DNA from: an uncultured Opitutia bacterium
GTDB taxonomy: Bacteria > Verrucomicrobiota > Verrucomicrobiia > Opitutales > Opitutaceae
Direction: 5' to 3'
Assembly: GCA_903839035.1 (NCBI GenBank)
Contig: CAIMAQ010000045.1
Location: 1 to 45,445, forward strand
Length of the DNA: 45,445 bases
In this document: positions 14,611 through 44,140 of the stretch, piece by piece
Layout: every line of letters starts with the position of its first letter
How positions within the stretch are numbered: position 1 is the first letter of the stretch
Made by a program: the position numbers and the translations under genes
The notes under the pieces: model-generated
Databases searched by the model: none
Told to the model about the DNA's origin: nothing
What the model saw: the letters and a program-made list of their open reading frames with translations, nothing else

Positions 14611-15001
14611 GTTTTAAAGCCCTCAAGGATCAGCGGTCAGCTTTCAGCCAAGGACTCGTGCGGGGAGGCCAGGAGAACCGCGTTACGGCGGCAAAAACTG
14701 CAGTTTTGACCAAGCTGAGCGCTGAAGGCTGACGGCTGATAGCTCCGCTAATGTACTTTATGGGATAATATTTGTGCTCTTTGGCGCTGGAACCTGCGCG
14801 CCGGGAGTAACGGGGCTTCGCTATGTAGCGTGTTTATAATTCACATAGGTAATTACTAGGGGAAGTAAGAAAAAGTGAATTGCCGTAGATCAGGCGGTTT
14901 CCGCAAGACATTCACCGGTGATTCGTGTAGCTTTTGGGAGTGATCGACGCCCCGCACTTTTCCCCCCGGTCAGGCCGCTAGCCCGGCGGAGATCACCCCT
15001 C
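14611..15001. other. Intergenic region: inverted repeat followed by the metF upstream region
   Basis: The first half contains an imperfect inverted repeat with arms at 14629-14648 (ATCAGCGGTCAGCTTTCAGC) and 14721-14740 (GCTGAAGGCTGACGGCTGAT), plus the perfect palindrome AAAACTGCAGTTTT at 14694-14707. The second half (14745-14920) is clearly more AT-rich and should hold the promoter of the folate operon. It contains GATAAT at 14764-14769, a good -10 candidate. No cobalamin, SAM or SAH riboswitch signature was found. An in-frame ATG at 14918 would extend the downstream protein by 28 non-conserved residues. Confidence 0.6.
14751..14763 (+). promoter_or_regulatory. Shared 13-base motif upstream of the folate (metF) operon
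   Basis: ATGTACTTTATGG stands here, directly before the -10-like GATAAT. The identical 13 bases occur, in the orientation of the corrinoid operon, at 26466-26478. Flanks also agree (CT-N before, N-AT after). It may be an operator or promoter element for a common regulator; no regulator gene was found in the window. Confidence 0.4.
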
Positions 15002-16645: not shown

Positions 16646-17512
16646 ATGGCCTTTCCCAACCTCACGATCATCGGCGAATCTATCAACGATTCGGTGCCGT
16701 CGACCCACAAGCTTTTCGAGGCCAATGACCTCGCCGGGCTCCAGGAACTTGCCCGGTCCCAGGACCAGGGCGGCGCCGGCTACGTCGACGTCAATGTCGG
16801 GCCGCGCTCCGCCGAGTTCCTTGCCCAGATGGTGCGTGATGTCCAAAGCGTCACCTCCAAGCCGCTCTCCATTGACACGCCGGACCCGGTGATGGCTGAG
16901 GCCGGGCTCAAGGCCTATGACCGCGTGCGCGGCGGCGGGCTCATCCCGATCCTGAATTCCATTTCCCAGCCCCGCCGGGAGATGTTCAAGCTCACGAAGG
17001 TCATGCCCTTCATGCCCATCCTGCTCGCGTCCGAGCGCATGGAAAAGGGCATCGCCCAGCCCAACCACACCGCGGCCGAGGTGTACCAGACCGCCCGCGA
17101 GCTCGTCGCGGAGGCTGGCCAGCACGGCATCCCGGTGAACCACTGCATCATTGACCCCGCAATCTCGCCGATCGGCGCGGACTCCGAGGGCCGCCTTCAC
17201 TGCCTGATGGGTGCGATCAACCTGATCCATGCCGATCCCGCGCTCAAGGGGGTCCACATGTCGGTCGGCCTGAGCAATTTCAGTGTGATGCTCCCGCCGA
17301 AGCGCGCGGACGGTTCGCCGACAAAGGGCCCGCTCGAGAGCGCGTTCCTGACCCTCGCCGGCCCGCTCGGCATGGACCACGTAATCGGCTCGGTGAAGCG
17401 CAAATACGAGGTGCTGCCGGCCGATCATCCCGCCATGCTCTGCCTGACCGACTGCTTGAAGCTCGAGGGTTTCGACGTCATCATGCGCGTGCAGGAATAC
17501 TACTCCAGCTAA
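16646..17512 (+). CDS. Methyltetrahydrofolate:corrinoid methyltransferase (AcsE/MeTr-like pterin-binding)
   Basis: A 288-residue TIM-barrel protein of the pterin-binding family. It would transfer a methyl group between N5-methyl-tetrahydrofolate and the cobalt of a corrinoid protein. Visible family motifs are [11 protein letters not shown] at the N terminus, [23 protein letters not shown], a barrel strand with PILNSISQ (conserved Asn), and [17 protein letters not shown] near the C-terminal end, as in AcsE and the MeTr domain of MetH. It lacks the corrinoid-binding and homocysteine domains of MetH, so it needs a separate corrinoid partner; the only one in the window is the protein at 25751-26389. 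Lying between metF and fhs, it is the natural junction between the methyl-corrinoid cluster and folate. The start at 16646 follows the metF stop by 21 bases. Confidence 0.88.
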
Positions 17513-17534: not shown

Positions 17535-19220
17535 ATGGCCGCTAAAATCGTCCCCTCCGATATCGAAATTGCCCAACAGGCAAAAATGCTGCCGATCGAC
17601 CAGATCGCGGCCCGGCTCAAGATTCCCGTCGACGCGCTCGAGCACTACGGGAAATACAAGGCCAAGGTCGGGCTGGACTATTACCAGCAGCAGCGGGCGA
17701 AACCCCGCGGCCGGCTCGTGCTGGTCACCGCCATTTCCCCCACGCCCGCGGGCGAGGGCAAGACCACGACGACGGTCGGGCTGGGTGATGCGCTCAACCG
17801 CATCGGCAAGCGCGCCATCATCTGCCTCCGCGAGCCCTCGCTCGGGCCCAGCTTTGGCGTGAAGGGCGGCGCCGCCGGCGGCGGTTATGCGCAGGTCATG
17901 CCGATGGAGGATATCAACCTGCACTTTACGGGTGATTTCCACGCCATCACGTCCGCCCACAACCTGCTCTCGGCGATTATCGACAACCACCTCACGCACG
18001 GCAACGCGCTGGGCCTCGACCCGAACCGCATCGTCTGGAAACGCGTGATGGACATGAACGACCGCGCGCTGCGGGAGATCATCGTCGGCTTGGGCGGCGT
18101 CGCCAACGGCACGGTCCGCCAGTCGGGCTTTGACATCACCGTCGCGTCCGAAGTCATGGCGATCTTCTGCCTGTCGCAGGACCTGGCGGAGCTGCGCGAG
18201 CGCCTCGGCAAGATCGTGGTCGGCTACACGCGCGAGAAAAAGCCCGTGACGGCGGCCCAGCTGAAGGCGCACGGCGCCATGGCGGTGCTGCTGCGCGATG
18301 CCCTTGCGCCCAACCTCGTGCAGACGCTGGAGAACAACCCCGCGTTCGTGCACGGCGGCCCGTTTGCGAACATTGCGCACGGCTGCAACAGCGTGCTGGC
18401 CACCAAGCTGGCCCTCAGCCTCGGCGAATACACGGTCACCGAGGCGGGTTTCGGCGCCGACCTGGGCGCCCAGAAATTCATCGACATCAAGTGCCGCTTC
18501 GCCGGCCTGCAGCCCGACGCGGTCGTCATCGTGGCGACCGTCCGCGCGCTGAAGATGCACGGCGGCGTGGACAAGGCCGACCTCAAGACGCCCAACGCCG
18601 AGGCGGTCGGGCGCGGCTTCGCCAACCTGGAGAAACACTTGGAGAACATCGCCGGCTACGGCCTGCCCGCCGTGGTGGCCATCAACCGCTTTACCGCCGA
18701 CACCGACGAGGAGTTTGCCGTCATCCAGGAACGCTGTGCCCGCCTGGGTGTGAAGGCGGTCCCGGCCACGCACTGGGCCGATGGCAGCGCCGGCGCCGAG
18801 GCCCTGGCGCACGCCGTGGTCGAGGCGGCGGAAAAGAACACGCGGAAATTCCAGCTGCTGTACCCGGACGAGATGCCGCTGTGGGACAAGGTCCGCACCA
18901 TCGCGCAGAAAATCTACGGCGCGAAGGACATCACCGCCAGCGCGAGCGTGAGGAACAAGTTCGAGGACCTGCAGAAGGCCGGCTACGGGAAATTTCCGAT
19001 CTGCATGGCCAAGACGCAGTATTCGTTCTCCACCGATCCGACCCTGCGCGGCCGGCCCACGGGTTTCGAGGTCGAGATCCGCGAGGTGCGGCTCTCGGCC
19101 GGGGCCGGCTTCATCGTCTGTCTCACGGGCGAGATCATGACGATGCCGGGCCTGCCCAAGGTCCCCGCCGCCGAGGTGATCGACCTCGACGCGTCCGGCA
19201 AGGTCGTCGGTTTGTTCTAA
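17535..19220 (+). CDS. fhs: Formate--tetrahydrofolate ligase
   Basis: A 561-residue cytoplasmic enzyme: formate + ATP + tetrahydrofolate to 10-formyl-tetrahydrofolate, reversible, so it can also make ATP from formyl-folate. Motifs include [20 protein letters not shown] (P-loop), [35 protein letters not shown] and [12 protein letters not shown], all typical of the family, and the length is standard. It is the third gene of the folate operon, 22 bases after the pterin methyltransferase. With metF it gives both ends of the folate C1 pathway; the methylene-folate dehydrogenase/cyclohydrolase (FolD) is not in the window. A palindrome at 19265-19291 follows the stop and may end transcription. Confidence 0.97.
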
Positions 19221-22214: not shown

Positions 22215-23474
22215 TCAGGCGGCGGCACCGTTGAAGTCGCGGACGGCATCCACCATCGCGACGATGTTGGCGACCGGCGTGCGGGCCTGGATGTTGTGGA
22301 TGGTGTTGAAGACGAAGCCGCCGTTGGGCGAAAACGCCCGGAGGCGCGACGTGACCTCGGCCCGCACTTCCGCGGGGGTGCCGAAGGGCAGGGTGCGCTG
22401 CGTATCCACGCCGCCGCCCCAAAACACGATGCGACTACCAAAGTCGGCCTTGAGCCGGACGGGGTCCATGTCCTTCGCCGAGCACTGCACCGGGTTAAGG
22501 ATGTCGAATCCGACGTCGATGAAGCGGTCGATGAGCGGGCGGACCGCACCGCAGGAGTGCTTGAAGGTCTTCCACTTCGTGTGGCGGTGCACCCAGTTGT
22601 TGATCTGCCGGTAGTACGGCGCGAAGAGGTCGTCGAACGCCTCCGGCGAGCAAAACTGGGAGCTTTGGGTGCCGAAATCGGTCCCGCAGATCACCAGCAC
22701 GTCCACGGTGTCGCCGGCGAGGGCGGCATAGGTCTCCAGGTTCTTGAGCGCCACCTCGCACTGGTGGGTGAAGATCTGGTGCACGTAGTCGCGGCGCTCG
22801 ATGAGGGAGATGTACCACTCGCTGACGTCGCGGATGCCCTTCGGGTGCTTGAGGAAGGCCGCCGGCACGAGAGCGATGTCGCCAAAGCCGGTGCCGCCGA
22901 TGCCGGAGACCACCGCGCGCTGCTCGCCGTGCACGCGGGCGAACTCGGTCCGCCAGTGGGCGAGGTCGGCCGGGCTGAGCAGTTGAAACTCCTCGCAGTT
23001 GTCCGCCGGGTTGAGGTGATCCTCGTCAATCGGCTCCTGGCGCACAATCGCGTCGAAGAAATAGCCGCTGCCCGGCATGTGCCCGCTGGGGGCGACGGAG
23101 GTGTCGCCCTGGGGGAAAAGATACACGTCGCCGCTGGCATCCTCGCGCGGCCGGAAGCCCTCCGGGACGAGCACGAGCTGGCCCCACGGCGTGCGCCACT
23201 CGTGCCAGCCCTCGTTGGCGAAGCCGAACATGGTGCCGCGGCCATTGGCGCCGACGCAATCGGAGCCGAGGAGGCGGCCCAGGTCCTCCTCGATCTCGCC
23301 GAGCATCTGGAACGGTTCCCAGACCTTCACGGGGTGGCGGGGCAGGCCGTAGTGGTCGCGCAGCGCGGCGACGCAGCTGACATGCATGCCTGTGAGCCCG
23401 GTGCCGCCGAAATCCACCGGCACGGGACCGGACTGGTGGGCGAGCGCCCGCTGGATTTTTTCCCGGGAAGTCAT
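22215..23474 (-). CDS. UroD-like methyltransferase-family barrel (3), HSC type
   Basis: The largest of the minus-strand set, 419 residues. It starts MTSREKIQRALAHQSGPVPV, the common MTxRERVxxAL start of the superfamily, with an insertion of about 60 residues before the barrel's middle. It ends with the zinc-type motif KTFKHSCGAVRPLI (His306, Cys308), a further cysteine in NPVQCSAKDMDP, then VFWGGGVDTQRTLPFGTPAEVR. His-x-Cys followed by a distal Cys is the metal pattern of MtaA/MtbA-type methyltransferases, so this protein probably binds zinc and activates a methyl acceptor or donor thiol/heteroatom. It is the fourth gene of the minus-strand corrinoid operon, with gaps of 17 bases before and 4 after. 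It differs clearly in motif from its neighbours, arguing for a different substrate. Confidence 0.8.
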   Translation of the reverse strand: MTSREKIQRALAHQSGPVPVDFGGTGLTGMHVSCVAALRDHYGLPRHPVKVWEPFQMLGEIEEDLGRLLGSDCVGANGRGTMFGFANEGWHEWRTPWGQLVLVPEGFRPREDASGDVYLFPQGDTSVAPSGHMPGSGYFFDAIVRQEPIDEDHLNPADNCEEFQLLSPADLAHWRTEFARVHGEQRAVVSGIGGTGFGDIALVPAAFLKHPKGIRDVSEWYISLIERRDYVHQIFTHQCEVALKNLETYAALAGDTVDVLVICGTDFGTQSSQFCSPEAFDDLFAPYYRQINNWVHRHTKWKTFKHSCGAVRPLIDRFIDVGFDILNPVQCSAKDMDPVRLKADFGSRIVFWGGGVDTQRTLPFGTPAEVRAEVTSRLRAFSPNGGFVFNTIHNIQARTPVANIVAMVDAVRDFNGAAA

Positions 23475-24628: not shown

Positions 24629-25714
24629 TCAGTAGGTGCCGTAGCGTTCGACGAAGCCGATGATGGCCTGGTAGGTGTCCCAGCTCACCTGCGGCGGCAC
24701 CGAGTGGTCGGAGTGGTAGGCATAACCGCGCGTCGCCATGCCGGCGGCGAACTTGGTGCGGATTTCCTCCTCAATGATGTCGAGGTCGTTAGTCCCCATC
24801 TTCATCACGTCGATGTTGCCGAACATGGCCAGCCGGTCGCCGAAGAGGGGGGCGAATTCCCGGACGTCCATGCCGGCCTTGGCCTCGATCGGCTGGAGGC
24901 ATTCGAACCCGGCGGCGATGTAGAGCGCGAGCACCTCGCGGACATGGCCGTCGGTGTGGTAGATGACGCGCTGGCCGCGGGCATGCGCCCAGTCCGCCAT
25001 GCGCTTGTGGGCCGGCCAGACGAGGTCCCGGTACATGGCCGGCGAGCACATGGTCGAGTGGTTGTACGCCATGTCGCCGTAGATCCAGAGTCCGTCCGGC
25101 TTCACGCCGCCCGCGAGGAGGGCCTCGAACGAGCGGAGCACGATGTCGGTGTGCACCTTCACGATGTCGCGCACCCACTCGGGGTCCTCGATCATCGCGA
25201 CGAGGCAGGTCTCGTCGCCAATGAGCCGGCGCAGGGCCTCGAAGCCCTCGACCCCGGTCAGGTGGGTCCAGCGTCCGAGGGCGCGGCCATCCTGCTGGGC
25301 CTGCAGGGCGGCCGCGACGTCCAGTTGCAGCGGGGCGGCCAGCATGGCCGGGCGGTAGATGGTTTCCCAGGCCTCGCGCGAGTCGCAGCCAAAGCTGATG
25401 TGTTCAGGTGTGCCGGAGCGGGCCTTCCAGTGCCGGGCGACGCCGCCCCAGGCATCGCGCACCGTCTCCGTCTCGGGGTCTGCCGACAGGACCTCCCGTT
25501 TACCAGGGAAAGGCGACGGCCAGCTCCAGCAAAGCGATTGAAAATCGGAGCCCAGGCGGAGCATCACGTCGTGGTAGTCGCCTTTGAGCCCCTCGCGTTG
25601 CCAGCGGGCGATGGTTTCCACCCAGAAGGAATCGCAGCGCGGGATGCGATCCTGGTCCTGCCGGGCGAACATGCGGTTCACGCGTTCGCACCCCGTCATG
25701 GAGATGGTTTTCAT
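24629..25714 (-). CDS. UroD-like methyltransferase-family barrel (5), HTD type
   Basis: A 361-residue protein, first barrel downstream of the corrinoid protein (36-base gap). It starts MKTISMTGCERVNRMFARQD; an in-frame ATG nine codons earlier is possible. Core motifs are GVKPDGLWIYGDMAYNHS, RVIYHTDGHVREVLALYI, FECLQPIEAKAGMDVREF, LAMFGNIDVMKMG and YAYHSDHSVPPQVS. The metal-site position reads His-Thr-Asp rather than His-x-Cys. The YGDMAY and QPIEAKAGMD blocks are typical of the large uncharacterised UroD-like group common in Verrucomicrobiota and Planctomycetota. Being immediately next to the corrinoid gene it is the best candidate for a dedicated methyltransferase I of that protein. Confidence 0.82.
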   Translation of the reverse strand: MKTISMTGCERVNRMFARQDQDRIPRCDSFWVETIARWQREGLKGDYHDVMLRLGSDFQSLCWSWPSPFPGKREVLSADPETETVRDAWGGVARHWKARSGTPEHISFGCDSREAWETIYRPAMLAAPLQLDVAAALQAQQDGRALGRWTHLTGVEGFEALRRLIGDETCLVAMIEDPEWVRDIVKVHTDIVLRSFEALLAGGVKPDGLWIYGDMAYNHSTMCSPAMYRDLVWPAHKRMADWAHARGQRVIYHTDGHVREVLALYIAAGFECLQPIEAKAGMDVREFAPLFGDRLAMFGNIDVMKMGTNDLDIIEEEIRTKFAAGMATRGYAYHSDHSVPPQVSWDTYQAIIGFVERYGTY

Positions 25715-25750
25715 GGCCGAACCCCGGAAGGGCCGGGGCACGGGGCCCGG

Positions 25751-26389
25751 TTAGGCCGCCGCGCCAACCAGTTTCCTGGCAATGTCCACGGCCGTGCCGG
25801 CGTCGGCGGCATAACCGTCGGCACCGATCTCATCCGCGAAAGCCTGGGTAATCGGCGCCCCGCCGATCATGATCTTCATGTCGGGCAGGTTGGCGGCCTT
25901 GAGGATGCGCACCGTTTCCTTCATCGCCGGCATCGTGGTGGTCAGCAGGGCGGAGAGGCCGACAATGTTGGCCTTGTGCTCCACCGCGGCGGCCAGGTAC
26001 TTGTCCGGGCTCACATTGGTGCCGAGGTCGACGACGGCGAAATTTGCGCCCCGCCACATCATGGAAATGAGGTTCTTGCCGATGTCGTGCAAGTCGCCCT
26101 GGACGGTGCCGATGAGGGCGGTGTACTTCGGCTTGATGCCCGCGATGGCGAGCAGCGGCTCGAGGATCTTCAACGCTTCCTTCATGGCCCGCGCAGCCAC
26201 GAGCATCTCAGGCACGAAGATCTCGTTACGTTTGAATTTGTCGCCCACGATGGCCATGCCGGGCACGAGGCCCGTCTCGACAATGGTCTGCGGGGCAACG
26301 CCAGCCGCGAGAAGTTCCTGGGTGAGTCGCACGGTGTCGGTCCGCTTTCCAGCGGCAACGGCGGCGGTCAGTTCAGTGAGGTGGGGCAT
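25751..26389 (-). CDS. Corrinoid (B12-binding) methyl-carrier protein, MtaC/MtbC type
   Basis: A 212-residue protein with the two-domain layout of methanogen and acetogen corrinoid proteins: an N-terminal helical cap (about 1-85, VPGMAIVGDKFKRNEIFVPEM region) and a Rossmann-like B12 domain. The cobalt-ligand motif DxHxxG is present as GDLHDIGKN, with His101 as the lower axial ligand. GLSALLTTTMP and KIMIGGAPIT supply the usual Ser/Thr and GG nucleotide-loop positions. It carries the methyl group as methyl-Co(III) between a substrate methyltransferase and the folate methyltransferase. It is the first gene of the minus-strand operon and the only corrinoid protein in the window, although twelve barrel-type genes surround it. 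It is divergent from the DUF1638/activator operon, so both are probably controlled from the 171-base gap. Confidence 0.95.
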   Translation of the reverse strand: MPHLTELTAAVAAGKRTDTVRLTQELLAAGVAPQTIVETGLVPGMAIVGDKFKRNEIFVPEMLVAARAMKEALKILEPLLAIAGIKPKYTALIGTVQGDLHDIGKNLISMMWRGANFAVVDLGTNVSPDKYLAAAVEHKANIVGLSALLTTTMPAMKETVRILKAANLPDMKIMIGGAPITQAFADEIGADGYAADAGTAVDIARKLVGAAA

Positions 26390-26465
26390 CCAAGCTTTAT
26401 AGGACGGCTCCCAACCCGAAGTAAATGCGAAGACCGCGCGGAAACCGTGAGATACATAAGAAATG

Positions 26466-26478
26466 CCATAAAGTACAT
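26466..26478 (-). promoter_or_regulatory. Shared 13-base motif upstream of the corrinoid operon
   Basis: Read on the minus strand the sequence is ATGTACTTTATGG, identical to 14751-14763 upstream of metF. It is 77 bases before the corrinoid-protein start and 83 before the divergent DUF1638 start, so it could serve either direction. A partial second copy of the core (CTTATG) follows 6 bases later on the same strand. Confidence 0.4.
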
Positions 26479-26560
26479 GAGGCGTGCTTTGTCAGTACCG
26501 GCGATGGGTGGTTTACACTCATGGAAGGGTGGCTGCCGCCCTGCTGGACCCCATTCCCCC

Positions 26561-27301
26561 ATGTCCAATTCATACAACATTTCCGTTATCTCGTGCGCGG
26601 TGCTCGAGCCGGAAGTCCGTCATTTCCTGCGCGATAACCCCCGCGTCCGGGATCTGGTTTTCATCCCGCTGGCGTTACACGAGGATCCCGCGCGACTGCA
26701 GCAGGAGTTGCAGCGGGCGGTGCAGCGCGCGGAGGCCAACCCCGCCGTCGAGGCCATCGTGCTGGTTTTCGGCCTGTGCGGCCGGGGGGTGGAGAATATC
26801 CGGCACGAGCGCTGCCCGATCATCCTGGCCCGGGCGCACGACTGCACGACCCTCTTCCTCGGGGACAAGGACCGGTACGCTGCCTACGTGAAGGACAATC
26901 CCGGAACCTACTGGTACAACCCGGGCTTCATCCGCGGCGGCAAGATCCCCGGCCCGGACCGGGAGGACCGGCTGCGCGAGGAGTTTGGCCGGAAGTTCGA
27001 CCCCGAGGACGTCGAGTTTCTGATCGAGCAGGACCGTGAGGGCCTCGCGCACTACAACCGCGCCACCTATGTGAGCATGGATCTGGGCGACACCCGGAAG
27101 GATGAGGAGTACACGCAGAGCTGCGCCGCCTGCCGCAACTGGGGCTATGACCGGGTCCCGGGCAACCCCGAGCTGCTCCAGGCCCTGCTGCGGGGCGACT
27201 GGGACGAAAAACGCTTTCTCATCGTGCCACCCCGGCACGTCATCCGCCTGTCGGCGGACGAATCCATTATCCGGGCCGAACCCGAATCCGCCTCTTCATG
27301 A
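26561..27301 (+). CDS. DUF1638 protein associated with corrinoid methyltransferase systems
   Basis: A 246-residue cytoplasmic protein. The start MSNSYNISVISCAVLEPEVR and the blocks VLVFGLCGRGVENI, PIILARAHDCTTLFLGDKDR, GTYWYNPGFI and SCAACRNWGYDRVPGN fit DUF1638, a family often found beside corrinoid proteins, MtaA-like enzymes and reductive activators in methanogens, acetogens and Verrucomicrobiota. Conserved cysteines (CAV, LCG, HDC, CAAC) suggest metal or thiol chemistry, perhaps in loading or repairing the corrinoid protein; no biochemical role is established to my knowledge. The ATG at 26561 is the first plausible start. Its stop overlaps the ATG of the activator (ATGA, 27298-27301), so the two proteins are made together, which supports a common task. 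Confidence 0.82.
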   Translation: MSNSYNISVISCAVLEPEVRHFLRDNPRVRDLVFIPLALHEDPARLQQELQRAVQRAEANPAVEAIVLVFGLCGRGVENIRHERCPIILARAHDCTTLFLGDKDRYAAYVKDNPGTYWYNPGFIRGGKIPGPDREDRLREEFGRKFDPEDVEFLIEQDREGLAHYNRATYVSMDLGDTRKDEEYTQSCAACRNWGYDRVPGNPELLQALLRGDWDEKRFLIVPPRHVIRLSADESIIRAEPESASS

Positions 27302-28923
27302 GTCACAAACTTCAGCTTGAAACCCCCGAGGGCCGCCAGGAGATCGAACTCGCGCCCGGCGAGGAACGGCGGTCGCTGACCGAGTTGCTGTCCCGCCACG
27401 GGCACCCGCTCAACACCCGCTGCGGCGGCCGCGGCCTGTGCGGCGGCTGCGAGGTCGGGCTGCGCGCGGGCGGTCTCCGGCGCCTGACGGACGGCGCCGC
27501 GGTCGCACCGGCGCCCGGGGATAAATTGCGCGCCTGCCAGCTGCGGCCGGACGGTGCGGCGGAGATCACGGTACCGGCGCGCTCGTTGTTGAAGCATGAG
27601 CCGTCGATCGTCGCGGAGTTCAAGATCAACGTGCCGTGGGCCAGTGATCCGCTCGATCCGGCGGCGCGCTTCGGCGCGGCGGTGGACGTGGGCACGACCA
27701 CGGTGGCGCTGCTGCTCGCCAACCTGGCCACGGGCAAGGTGGTCGGGGAAGCCTCGGCCTTCAACGCCCAGATCCGTTTTGGCGAGGATGTGCTCACCCG
27801 CATCCAGCGCTGCGACCAGAGTCCCGCCGCGGTGCGGCAGATGCAGCGGGCCGTGGCGGTGGAGACGATCCAGCCCCTGCTCGAGGCGGCCTGCACCAAG
27901 GCCGGCGTGGCCACGGCGGATGTCGGCGTGATGACTGTCGCGGCCAACACCACCATGCAGCATCTGCTGGCAGGCGTGGATCCCGGCCCGCTGGGCGTGC
28001 ATCCGTTCAAGCCGGTCTTCCTCGACCATCGGATCTATGCACCGGCCGAGCTGGGCCTCGCGTTCGGCGGTTCCGGGGCGAAGGTCCATCTGCTGCCGGG
28101 TCCCGCCGCCTATGTCGGCGCCGACCTGGCCGCCGGCATCATCGCGACTGGGATGCTCTACGACGAGGGCCCGGTGCTGCTGGTGGATGTCGGCACGAAC
28201 GGTGAGATCATCGCCAAGGTGGGCGACCGCCTCGTGGGCTGCGCCACGGCGGCGGGCCCGGCCTTCGAGGGCGCGGGCCTCACGAGCGGCACCCGCGGCG
28301 TCAAGGGCGCGATCGAGCGCATCAGTTTGCAGGGCGACCCTTACACTGTGGAGCTCGGGGTGATCGGCGGCGAGGCGCGGCCCATCGGCATCTGCGGCTC
28401 GGCCTATGTGGATTTCCTCTGGGAAGGCCGGCGGCGCGGCCTCCTGCAGCAAAACGGGCGCTTCGCGCCAGACTTCGTGGCCCGCGCGGGCGCGGCGGTC
28501 CAGGCGGACGAGTACGGCCAAAAGCTCCAGTTGCACGCCCGCGGGGCCTCGGGCCCGGTGTGGATCTCCGAGGTGGACATTGCGCGACTGCTGCAGGCGA
28601 AGGCCGCCATCGCCGCCGGTATCAACACGCTGCTCAGCCTGCTGGGGGTGGCGGCGGCGGACGTGAAAACGCTCTATCTCGCCGGCGGTTTCGGACTCCA
28701 TCTTTCCCTGGAGCACGCCATCGGCTGCGGCCTGCTGCCCGGCTTCACCCCCGCGCAGATCCAGGTTGTGGGCAACACCTCGCTCGGCGGCGCCTTCCTT
28801 GCGCTCAACGACCGCAGTCTCCTGGCGGAGATGCAGTCGGCCTGCACGCGCCTGGAATCCATCGAGCTTAACCTGCAACCCGGCTTCGAGGACGCCTACA
28901 TTGACGAGCTCATGCTGATCTGA
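27298..28923 (+). CDS. Corrinoid reductive activator (RACo-type; 2Fe-2S ferredoxin plus DUF4445 ASKHA domain)
   Basis: A 541-residue protein. The N-terminal plant-type ferredoxin domain has Cys42, Cys48, Cys51 (TRCGGRGLCGGC) and Cys80 (LRACQLRP), a CX5CX2CXnC set for one 2Fe-2S cluster. A linker follows, then from about residue 120 an ATP-binding ASKHA domain (FGAAVDVGTTTVALLLANL, GPVLLVDVGTNGEI, AGPAFEGAGLTSG, LYLAGGFGLHLSLEHAIG). Such proteins use ATP to drive electrons uphill onto inactive Co(II) corrinoid, restoring Co(I) after accidental oxidation; they are the bacterial counterparts of RamA. It is translationally coupled to DUF1638 and divergent from the corrinoid protein, its expected partner. 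Electrons could come from ferredoxin reduced by the nifJ product. The gene is complete with all four cysteines. Confidence 0.93.
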   Translation: MSHKLQLETPEGRQEIELAPGEERRSLTELLSRHGHPLNTRCGGRGLCGGCEVGLRAGGLRRLTDGAAVAPAPGDKLRACQLRPDGAAEITVPARSLLKHEPSIVAEFKINVPWASDPLDPAARFGAAVDVGTTTVALLLANLATGKVVGEASAFNAQIRFGEDVLTRIQRCDQSPAAVRQMQRAVAVETIQPLLEAACTKAGVATADVGVMTVAANTTMQHLLAGVDPGPLGVHPFKPVFLDHRIYAPAELGLAFGGSGAKVHLLPGPAAYVGADLAAGIIATGMLYDEGPVLLVDVGTNGEIIAKVGDRLVGCATAAGPAFEGAGLTSGTRGVKGAIERISLQGDPYTVELGVIGGEARPIGICGSAYVDFLWEGRRRGLLQQNGRFAPDFVARAGAAVQADEYGQKLQLHARGASGPVWISEVDIARLLQAKAAIAAGINTLLSLLGVAAADVKTLYLAGGFGLHLSLEHAIGCGLLPGFTPAQIQVVGNTSLGGAFLALNDRSLLAEMQSACTRLESIELNLQPGFEDAYIDELMLI

Positions 28924-30063: not shown

Positions 30064-31347
30064 ATGTCCACCCCGCCCGCGCCCGCCCCGCCCATCCAGC
30101 TGCTCGCTCACGACCGCGAGGTCCTGCGACCGCTGGTGGAGGCCACCGCGCAGATCGCGGCGCTGCCCGTGCACCGGGAAAAGGCGCGGCTGTGGGGCCG
30201 GATCAACGACCTGCACAGCGAGCGCCCGATGATCTGGATCACCGAGGTGCCGTGGCACGAGTTCAGCGACCGCACCGACGAGCTGGTGTTGCAGTGCCGG
30301 TCGCCGTGGGCGCGCGCCCTGGAGGTGGACCTGCGCCGCCAGCTGTACCAGTGGCGGCACCTGCCGGGGGATATGATCTTCAACACTTACGTGCCGTGCC
30401 CGATCGCCTGGCGCAGCACGAGCTTCGGCATCATGCGGCAGGGCGAGCTGCTCGCGGTTACCGGCGGCGCCGGGATCAACTCGCAGCACTACGAGCCGCA
30501 GATCTCGTGCCTGTCCGACCTGAAAAAGATCAAGGACCCGGTCGTGACCGTGGACCGGGCGGACACCGCCGCGCGGTTCGACGTGATGCACGAGGCGTTT
30601 GGCGACATCATGCCCGTGCGCGAGCAGGGGTGTAACAACGTCTGGTTCACGCCCTGGGACAACCTGGTGATGTGGTACGGCGTGCAGGAGGCGCTGATAG
30701 ACCTCATCGAGCAGCCCGAGGTGATCAACGCCGCCGTCGCGCGCATCGTCGAGTGCTGCCTCAAGGAACTCGACCAGTTCGTCGCGCTGAACCTCCTCGC
30801 GGCGAACAACAACAACTGCCGCATCGGCTCGGGCGCCTACGGCTACACGAGCGAGCTGCCGCGAGCCGGCTTCAATCCCGCGCACCCGACCCCACCGCAC
30901 CTGTGGGGCTGCTCGAACGCCCAAATCTTCACGGAGGTCTCGCAGGAGATGCACTGGGAGTTCGCGCTGCGCCACGACCTGCCCTGGCTCGCGCGCTGGG
31001 GCCTCATTTACTACGGCTGCTGCGAGGTGCTCGACACGAAGATGGAGATCCTGCGGCGCATCCCGAACCTGCGAAAAATCTCGATGAACTACCGCATCCA
31101 TGTGGACCGCGCGGCGGCCGCGGTCGGGTCGGACTACGTTTTCAGCTACAAGCCGAACCCCGCGTGCTTCGCCACGGATGCGTTCGACCTCGGCAAGGCC
31201 CGCGACGAGCTGAAGCACGTGCTGGACTGCACGCGCGGCGGGCACGTGGAGCTGGTCCTGAAGGATATCTCGACCGTGGCCAGCCAGCCCGAGCGGCTGT
31301 GGCAGTGGGCCGCGATGGCGCAGGAACTCGTGGAAGGCCGCGCATGA
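30064..31347 (+). CDS. Divergent UroD-like barrel (7) with YGCCE motif
   Basis: A 427-residue protein, the most divergent of the set. It contains a long N-terminal region (WITEVPWHEF, IFNTYVPCPIAWRSTSFG), then GCNNVWFTPWDNLVMWYG, LSDLKKIKDPVV, GLIYYGCCEVLDTKMEILR, NLRKISMNYR, YVFSYKPNPACFA and VELVLKDISTV. The YYGCCE and KPNPA blocks define a family repeatedly found with MtaA-like genes; the two adjacent cysteines and Glu probably take the place of the metal site. Assignment to the UroD superfamily rests on layout and context rather than on clear sequence identity. It lies 12 bases after barrel (6) and converges with barrel (8). A methyltransferase role is inferred; it could equally be a partner protein of the other barrels. 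Confidence 0.6.
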   Translation: MSTPPAPAPPIQLLAHDREVLRPLVEATAQIAALPVHREKARLWGRINDLHSERPMIWITEVPWHEFSDRTDELVLQCRSPWARALEVDLRRQLYQWRHLPGDMIFNTYVPCPIAWRSTSFGIMRQGELLAVTGGAGINSQHYEPQISCLSDLKKIKDPVVTVDRADTAARFDVMHEAFGDIMPVREQGCNNVWFTPWDNLVMWYGVQEALIDLIEQPEVINAAVARIVECCLKELDQFVALNLLAANNNNCRIGSGAYGYTSELPRAGFNPAHPTPPHLWGCSNAQIFTEVSQEMHWEFALRHDLPWLARWGLIYYGCCEVLDTKMEILRRIPNLRKISMNYRIHVDRAAAAVGSDYVFSYKPNPACFATDAFDLGKARDELKHVLDCTRGGHVELVLKDISTVASQPERLWQWAAMAQELVEGRA

Positions 31348-44064: not shown

Positions 44065-44140
44065 GGGCCGATAGCTTAATGGTTAAAGCAGAGGACTCAT
44101 AATCCTTTGATTCTGGGTTCGAGTCCCAGTCGGCCCACCA
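44065..44140 (+). tRNA. tRNA with CAT anticodon, probably tRNA-Ile2 (lysidine type), otherwise tRNA-Met
   Basis: The cloverleaf folds completely: acceptor GGGCCGA/TCGGCCC, D arm GCTT...AAGC, anticodon stem GAGGA/TCCTT around loop CTCATAA (anticodon CAT, 44098-44100), T arm CTGGG-TTCGAGT-CCCAG, and an encoded CCA at 44138-44140. The AGGACTCATAATCCT anticodon arm resembles many bacterial Ile2 tRNAs, in which C34 is changed to lysidine, but elongator Met cannot be excluded from sequence alone. It marks the border to a more AT-rich, decayed segment. Confidence 0.92.

Follow-up and report, generated by a model that had tools for sequence, protein, structure and literature searches.

A gene for a DUF1638 protein overlaps the gene for a RACo/Ram-type reductive activator (RACo below) in a 45,445-nucleotide stretch of DNA from an uncultured Opitutia bacterium (contig CAIMAQ010000045.1), and the pair faces the gene for a corrinoid carrier protein across a divergent control region. 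We found that genomes with DUF1638 nearly always encode RACo, that the two genes are adjacent in most of the named loci surveyed, and that they are fused in two cases. A role of DUF1638 in corrinoid reactivation or upkeep in general is very probable. As a specific mechanism we tentatively propose that DUF1638 is a Cys3-His metal protein that docks on RACo and feeds it electrons, a reading that we hold with much less assurance. The whole stretch, called the window below, is one contig of a 3.39 Mb genome that is 97% complete. Its central features are as follows.

25751-26389, minus strand: corrinoid carrier protein, 212 amino acids, with B12-binding_2 and B12-binding domains; first gene of the minus-strand operon, start codon at 26389
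26390-26560: divergent control region of 171 base pairs (bp), the sequence between carrier and DUF1638
26561-27301, plus strand: DUF1638 protein, 246 amino acids, ATG at 26561, stop TGA at 27299-27301
27298-28923, plus strand: RACo/Ram-type reductive activator, 541 amino acids, ATG at 27298, with Raco_middle and RACo_C_ter domains

The gene order, the ATGA overlap and the 171-base gap had been described in an earlier note on this DNA, and their coordinates agree exactly with the sequence and its open reading frames (ORFs). The junction of DUF1638 and RACo reads ATGA, with the start at 27298 overlapping the stop that ends at 27301. The DUF1638 protein matches PF07796 with 115.3 bits (gathering cut-off 27) over residues 34-210, and the closest named protein among the matches listed, from an 'uncultured Opitutae bacterium', is 86% identical. 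RACo matches Raco_middle with 163.2 bits and RACo_C_ter with 221.3 bits (ASKHA type according to the Pfam description). Its N-terminus carries a CX5CX2C...C motif in translation, and Pfam Fer2 gave no match for this protein. The carrier scores 79.8 bits for B12-binding_2 and 92.7 bits for B12-binding and belongs with the free-standing carriers. It resembles the NCBIfam families MtgC, MtbC and TIGR02370, yet it falls under every curated cut-off listed (for example, MtgC 185.7 with 370 required, and TIGR02370 174.4 with 215.3 required).

We compared the distribution of DUF1638 and RACo in samples of 236 genomes from the class, 246 from Planctomycetota and 61 from the family. The class and family samples overlap in genomes, and related genomes are not independent in the statistics. 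DUF1638 is present in 46 genomes of the class sample, RACo in 52 and both in 45; thus RACo accompanies DUF1638 in 45 of 46 genomes and is found in 7 of the 190 others (Fisher 1e-39). The single genome lacking RACo is 77% complete and carries its DUF1638 gene at a contig edge. In Planctomycetota RACo occurs in all 27 DUF1638 genomes and in 53 of 219 others, some RACo matches being weak, and in the family in 18 of 19 and 7 of 42, respectively. The exception in the family, G567, carries a divergent DUF1638 that lacks the HDC motif described below. Of the genomes of the 80 named DUF1638 loci considered next, 48 were tested genome-wide and 46 of these have RACo; in the remaining two DUF1638 is followed by only 71 and 159 bases of contig. 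The earlier note had stated that its proposal would fall if DUF1638 occurred mostly in genomes without any corrinoid methyltransferase, and with RACo as the marker of corrinoid systems we found the reverse.

The converse does not apply: RACo frequently occurs alone. Of 55 RACo proteins placed in a tree, 30 form the clade of the window's RACo (support 99/98), and DUF1638 is present in the genome for 28 of these rows; the genomes of the other two are 85 and 89% complete. Among the family genomes with RACo and no DUF1638, six of seven hold only a distant RACo (30-32% identity to that of the window); the seventh, G571, has a RACo gene whose start is cut off by the contig end. RACo proteins of fewer than 400 residues and carriers of fewer than 180 were excluded from the trees, and L220, a repeat of L138, was left off the carrier tree. 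Mapping of the DUF1638 context on the trees did not distinguish between an association with RACo clades and one with carrier clades.

A survey of DUF1638 neighbourhoods for RACo-type proteins, which the earlier note had put forward as a check, revealed coupling beyond chance. In 64 of 80 named loci (two of which are single-frame fusions) RACo follows DUF1638 on the same strand at an estimated distance of no more than 400 bp, and a divergent carrier lies within 500 bp in 31 of the 80. These loci are the best 80 of at least 586 confirmed DUF1638 candidates, and they lean to relatives of the window because only top-scoring matches were used. An ATGA or GTGA overlap is possible at 33 of 61 junctions; another 4 have the form TGATG/TAATG, and the remaining 24 fit neither pattern. 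The class sample is less biased and counts fragmented genomes; there, RACo lies within 5 kb of 27 of 52 DUF1638 places. In G058, which is of the same genus, and in G541 and G556, the same control region lies directly between divergent carrier and RACo genes, DUF1638 being absent from the locus, and each genome retains DUF1638 on another contig. This retention in three Opitutaceae genomes is a new observation. DUF1638 is therefore kept with the carrier-RACo system in or out of the operon. A second DUF1638 gene adjoins a gene for a GDSL-type lipase in the window's own genome (contig C2, L129:9573-10343) and in L125, and likewise in G030. A tblastn search of a plasmid collection with the DUF1638 protein gave no match.

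Two natural DUF1638-RACo fusions, and four fusions of DUF1638 to a hydantoinase-type ATPase, are new here. The ORFs of all loci fetched include two that hold both DUF1638 and RACo domains (L057 and L067), each an uninterrupted frame of some 785 residues in which Pfam recognizes Raco_middle and RACo_C_ter; L057 is located on the complete chromosome CP087563.1 of Planctomycetes bacterium syqfu. The AlphaFold2 model of the L057 fusion (pLDDT 84.8, pTM 0.59) is poor in the inter-domain stretch and does not resolve how the domains pack, and its input alignment, A5, misplaces about 20 residues. In four other Planctomycetota (G293, G380, G426 and G396, the last with a frame that runs off its contig) the fusion partner of DUF1638 is an ATPase of the hydantoinase/oxoprolinase type (PF05378 and PF01968), and each of these genomes also carries RACo. 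Hydantoinase A shares its superfold with the ASKHA-type C-terminal domain of RACo. No fusion of DUF1638 to a carrier occurs among the ORFs of all loci fetched.

The residues conserved in DUF1638 suggest a metal centre. We counted conservation over 132 distinct domains, which remain from 188 rows after removal of duplicates and contained pieces and which include the fusions and divergent domains; L014, a truncated sequence, was left out of alignment A1. C12 is present in 130 of 130 domains (two gaps), and H40, C73 and C95 in 132 of 132. E18 (E in 126, D in 4, two gaps), H93 (H in 125) and D94 (D in 129) are nearly invariant. The invariant set of C12, H40, C73 and C95 is new here; C12 lies outside the Pfam match, which begins at residue 34. 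Three cysteines and one histidine are a common ligand set for a metal or an iron-sulfur cluster. In the divergent DUF1638 proteins L245 (G567), L127 (G047) and L279 (G322) these four residues are kept and the histidine and aspartate of the HDC motif are gone. The gene in G567 lies near an ORF that resembles a PAS sensor by eye.

The AlphaFold2 model of DUF1638 (pLDDT 94.0, pTM 0.89) has an alpha/beta fold. C12 ends predicted strand 1 (7-12); H40, C73 and C95 come after strands 2 (29-35), 3 (65-69) and 4 (87-90), respectively. Because all four lie at or just past the ends of the first four strands, they are probably on one edge of the predicted sheet. Foldseek comparison of the model to the PDB gave nothing at E <= 0.001 (best E 1.3e-3, TM 0.24), and the best VIA-align score (Z 7.1, to an asparaginase over 125 residues at rmsd 3.5) is within the stated background. 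Many Rossmann-like proteins tie in these searches, and we therefore read no function from the fold. In addition, an alignment-based sequence search of solved structures gave two chance-level matches only (E 0.82), and a profile comparison of DUF1638 with the carrier gave nothing.

Some of this function was known before. The earlier note held that no role had been assigned to DUF1638 so far; in fact, one had already been shown genetically in Phaeobacter inhibens, without a mechanism. Price et al. (2018) report that DUF1638 mutants are rescued by methionine and are cofit with methionine synthase genes, as is a RamA-like protein; both are counted there as B12 reactivation proteins, and for DUF1638 the pertinent section makes no 'specific proposal' (PMC5764234). 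A PNAS paper of 2025 repeats the role as a prediction in its relevant passage (PMC12478193). The accessible passages of the open-licence literature that name DUF1638 or PF07796 make no mention of gene fusions or of a metal centre. The earlier note had also suggested a part in either cobalt reactivation or corrinoid loading. The link to reactivation is upheld by the joint occurrence of DUF1638 and RACo, their coupling in operons, their fusion and the retention of DUF1638 in trans; loading is taken up below.

Corrinoid proteins lose activity whenever their cobalt slips to Co(II), and the electron route to the ATP-driven repair enzyme in the cell has merely been suggested in the literature consulted. 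RACo-type enzymes reduce carriers in vitro with ATP and Ti(III) or Eu(II), and the descriptions at hand give the natural donor only as 'e.g., ferredoxin or flavodoxin' (PMC6739815, PMC6855144), which leaves room for DUF1638 upstream of RACo. DUF1638 is not among the proteins named for these systems and thus seems dispensable for the ATP-driven step itself; the Phaeobacter phenotype indicates that the living cell requires it (PMC5764234). What the in-vitro systems lack would be either a natural source of electrons for the activase or the production of a carrier that is loaded and can be reduced. The RACo fusions and the Cys3-His site favour electron supply, while linkage to the carrier in some genomes keeps carrier loading alive.

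In the mechanism that we propose, DUF1638 would be an accessory subunit of RACo-type corrinoid reactivation. Coupled genes, two single-frame fusions and co-occurrence suggest that the separate proteins make physical contact, with DUF1638 docking on RACo. The Cys3-His site would bind a metal, probably an iron-sulfur cluster, and would pass electrons from a low-potential pool of the cell to the N-terminal iron-sulfur domain of RACo. ATP-driven transfer from there could then bring Co(II) in the carrier back to Co(I). A single divergent control region would drive both the carrier and the DUF1638-RACo pair, and its central element also precedes folate one-carbon genes, such that methyl-group supply and its repair system may be switched on together. 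A broader version is rather unlikely: DUF1638 would represent a novel type of metal protein, the redox partner of ASKHA-type ATPases, with the RACo relay and an undescribed ATP-coupled electron transfer in the hydantoinase/oxoprolinase-type fusions of some Planctomycetota.

Several observations weigh against the electron relay. RACo occurs without DUF1638 in 7 of 52 RACo genomes of the class, 53 of 80 of Planctomycetota (some weak) and 7 of 25 of the family; because this is frequent, DUF1638 is an accessory for a subset of RACo systems. G226, a genome 98% complete in a single contig, encodes RACo and a carrier grouping with the DUF1638-linked carriers, and lacks DUF1638. In G085 and G093 DUF1638 lies beside a gene for an AraC-type regulator and the carrier, far from RACo (in G085 a URO-D gene adjoins them as well), and in G015 (locus L115) the ORFs of DUF1638 and carrier overlap by four bases and are not linked to RACo. 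In the 4.6-8.5 kb fetched around the hydantoinase-type fusions (L271, L272, L273 and L274), neither a carrier nor RACo is present. A profile comparison (hhalign) with the Escherichia coli dehydratase homologue YjiM gave nothing (probability 0.2). The metal or redox role itself is a prediction from sequence and modelled structure. Finally, DUF1638 is not among the proteins named in the in-vitro activase systems, as far as the consulted text of these reports goes (PMC6739815, PMC6855144).

The linkage in G085, G093 and G015, including the four-base overlap in L115, fits equally well a role in corrinoid loading, in which DUF1638 would give cobamide to the apo-carrier or swap damaged cobamide before RACo reduces it. 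This would equally yield the published methionine phenotype (PMC5764234). However, the fusions join DUF1638 to RACo (two) or another ATPase (four) and, among the ORFs of the loci fetched, never to a carrier, and a carrier of the same group exists without DUF1638 in G226. Corrinoid proteins can also be reconstituted in vitro with corrinoid alone, and we regard loading as rather improbable, though the most credible of the alternatives.

The fusion to two different ATPase families suggests an ATPase-binding module, and some RACo clades manage without DUF1638. Both points suit a docking or allosteric subunit that would position RACo on a stand-alone carrier or gate its ATPase, with the cysteines and histidine holding structural zinc. 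However, the conserved residues are at the ends of predicted strands, where functional sites usually lie, and the nearly invariant E18, H93 and D94 exceed the needs of structural zinc. We consider this explanation unlikely. Through their thiols, the three invariant cysteines could instead rescue carrier cobalt that is beyond reduction by RACo, either over-oxidised to Co(III) or bound by foreign upper ligands. In Planctomycetota DUF1638 is rarer in genomes with an AcsV-like RACo (5 of 29, compared to 22 of 51), as if strict anaerobes needed it less. However, this difference is marginal (Fisher 0.03), the 285-bit cut for AcsV-like proteins was picked after viewing the list, and the anaerobe Methanosarcina acetivorans has DUF1638; such a rescue is more doubtful still. 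That DUF1638 is a passenger retained through operon structure alone, as the overlapping genes might suggest, is hardly credible given its location on other contigs in G058, G541 and G556, the 27 of 27 co-occurrence and the invariant residues, and is refuted in Phaeobacter by the knock-out phenotype (PMC5764234).

The divergent control region, which the earlier note had taken to be shared by both operons, proved to hold a footprint of about 105 bp that is kept in 14 related loci. The gap between carrier and DUF1638 is estimated at 168-175 bp across twelve loci (L033-L044); in L036, L041, L043 and L044 an estimated start misses a start codon. The elements recognized are as follows.

26417-26521: conserved footprint core; 21 of 106 columns are invariant in the alignment of 14 related loci
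26421-26426, minus strand: GTAAAT, read on this strand as ATTTAC, which may be a -10 box for the carrier side; GTAAA is invariant in the 14 loci
26452-26479, plus strand: central 28-bp operator-like element, matrix score 31.4 with the window row excluded from the matrix
26489-26517, plus strand: promoter-like TTGTCA-N17-TTTACA on the DUF1638-RACo side
14750-14777, minus strand: another copy of the 28-bp element, lying 140 bases upstream of the MTHFR ORF, score 32.5 on the same matrix

The invariant columns of the alignment mark the carrier-side GTAAA, in the centre an element resembling CACA..A..T.CCCA....TACAT and, towards DUF1638, a pair resembling TTGTCA-N17-TTTACA. The last pattern, derived from this very site, has one match in the window and none in 100 shuffles. 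A scan of 26200-26700 for consensus sigma-70 promoters and terminators found neither, and the pair is accordingly only a putative promoter. A profile of the footprint (R1) gives the window site 72.4 bits (E 6.8e-20 in the genome), the window being part of its training set, and a sequence profile found one further place genome-wide, at 14745-14783 ahead of MTHFR (E 0.033). Because both sites score far above the rest of the window (best 11.1) and random copies (maximum of 20 copies 20.0), the corrinoid operons and the folate operon (MTHFR-MeTr-FTHFS) probably share a regulator. Operator-like sites in G093, G141 and G015 could not be tied to a gene: none of ten adjoining ORFs matched a Pfam family. 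When TATTCCCAA was searched for as a short motif, the result was at chance level. At the Rfam gathering threshold no riboswitch was found in the whole window, in which a tRNA gene at 44065-44137 is the sole match. In L113 and L114 AraC-type regulators, one with a PocR sensor domain, lie between DUF1638 and carrier; these are candidates for the regulator family.

Methyltransferase genes and folate genes make up the surroundings.

22215-23474, minus strand: URO-D superfamily methyltransferase, fourth gene of the minus-strand operon, 56.6 bits
23492-24622, minus strand: URO-D-like protein, third gene of that operon, 18.7 bits (under the cut-off of 23.9)
24629-25741, minus strand: URO-D superfamily methyltransferase, second gene of that operon, PF01208, 52.1 bits
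29038-30051, plus strand: URO-D superfamily methyltransferase downstream of RACo, 36.9 bits
14918-16624, plus strand: MTHFR with DUF5981
16646-17512, plus strand: pterin-binding methyltransferase (MeTr-like)
17535-19220, plus strand: formate-tetrahydrofolate ligase (FTHFS)

Nine URO-D-type ORFs above the Pfam cut-off, and one below it, surround carrier, DUF1638 and RACo. The clients of the window's RACo and DUF1638 are probably these methyltransferases. A methionine-synthase activation domain is present elsewhere in the genome, and the pair therefore need not serve MetH. In the plus-strand operon a conserved ORF at 30064-31347 stays near RACo in G058 and G541, and Pfam and NCBIfam gave no match to it at E <= 0.001. 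A DUF1638-carrier-URO-D run in L115 lies close to a gene for an alpha-L-rhamnosidase on the same strand and perhaps demethylates methylated plant sugars. With its methyltransferases, the window looks like a methyl-transfer cluster akin to the described mlp clusters or O-demethylases.

A widespread partner with a knock-out phenotype, a Cys3-His signature and ATPase fusions makes the question left in 2018 experimentally tractable. Known systems offer four comparisons. As a Cys-ligated cluster protein that partners an ASKHA ATPase, DUF1638 would resemble 2-hydroxyacyl-CoA dehydratase and benzoyl-CoA reductase, but it has no detectable sequence similarity to the one PF06050-type homologue tried (YjiM). 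The window's RACo shares Raco_middle, RACo_C_ter and the N-terminal Cys motif with RACo, RamA and the O-demethylase activating enzyme; it differs from AcsV (NF040756, 334.5 with 800 required) and RamA (TIGR04270, 92.4 with 500 required) in scoring under these curated NCBIfam cut-offs and in its coupling to DUF1638. Type 1 mlp clusters, as described by Kountz and Balskus, likewise group several URO-D-type proteins with a carrier and a Ram/RACE protein, and are defined by Mlps more than 25% identical to a characterised SCMT and by His-Cys-Cys zinc ligands; the window differs in its folate methyltransferase-like gene and MTHFR/FTHFS, and a full-text search for DUF1638 did not return that paper (PMC10418091). 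The fourth is Phaeobacter inhibens, where DUF1638 (PGA1_c13340) is likewise paired with a RamA/RACo-like activase (PGA1_c15200), by phenotype and phylogenetic profile, and likewise adjoins the gene for a B12-binding protein. It serves a split methionine synthase there (PMC5764234), whereas the window's clients would be URO-D-type methyltransferases.

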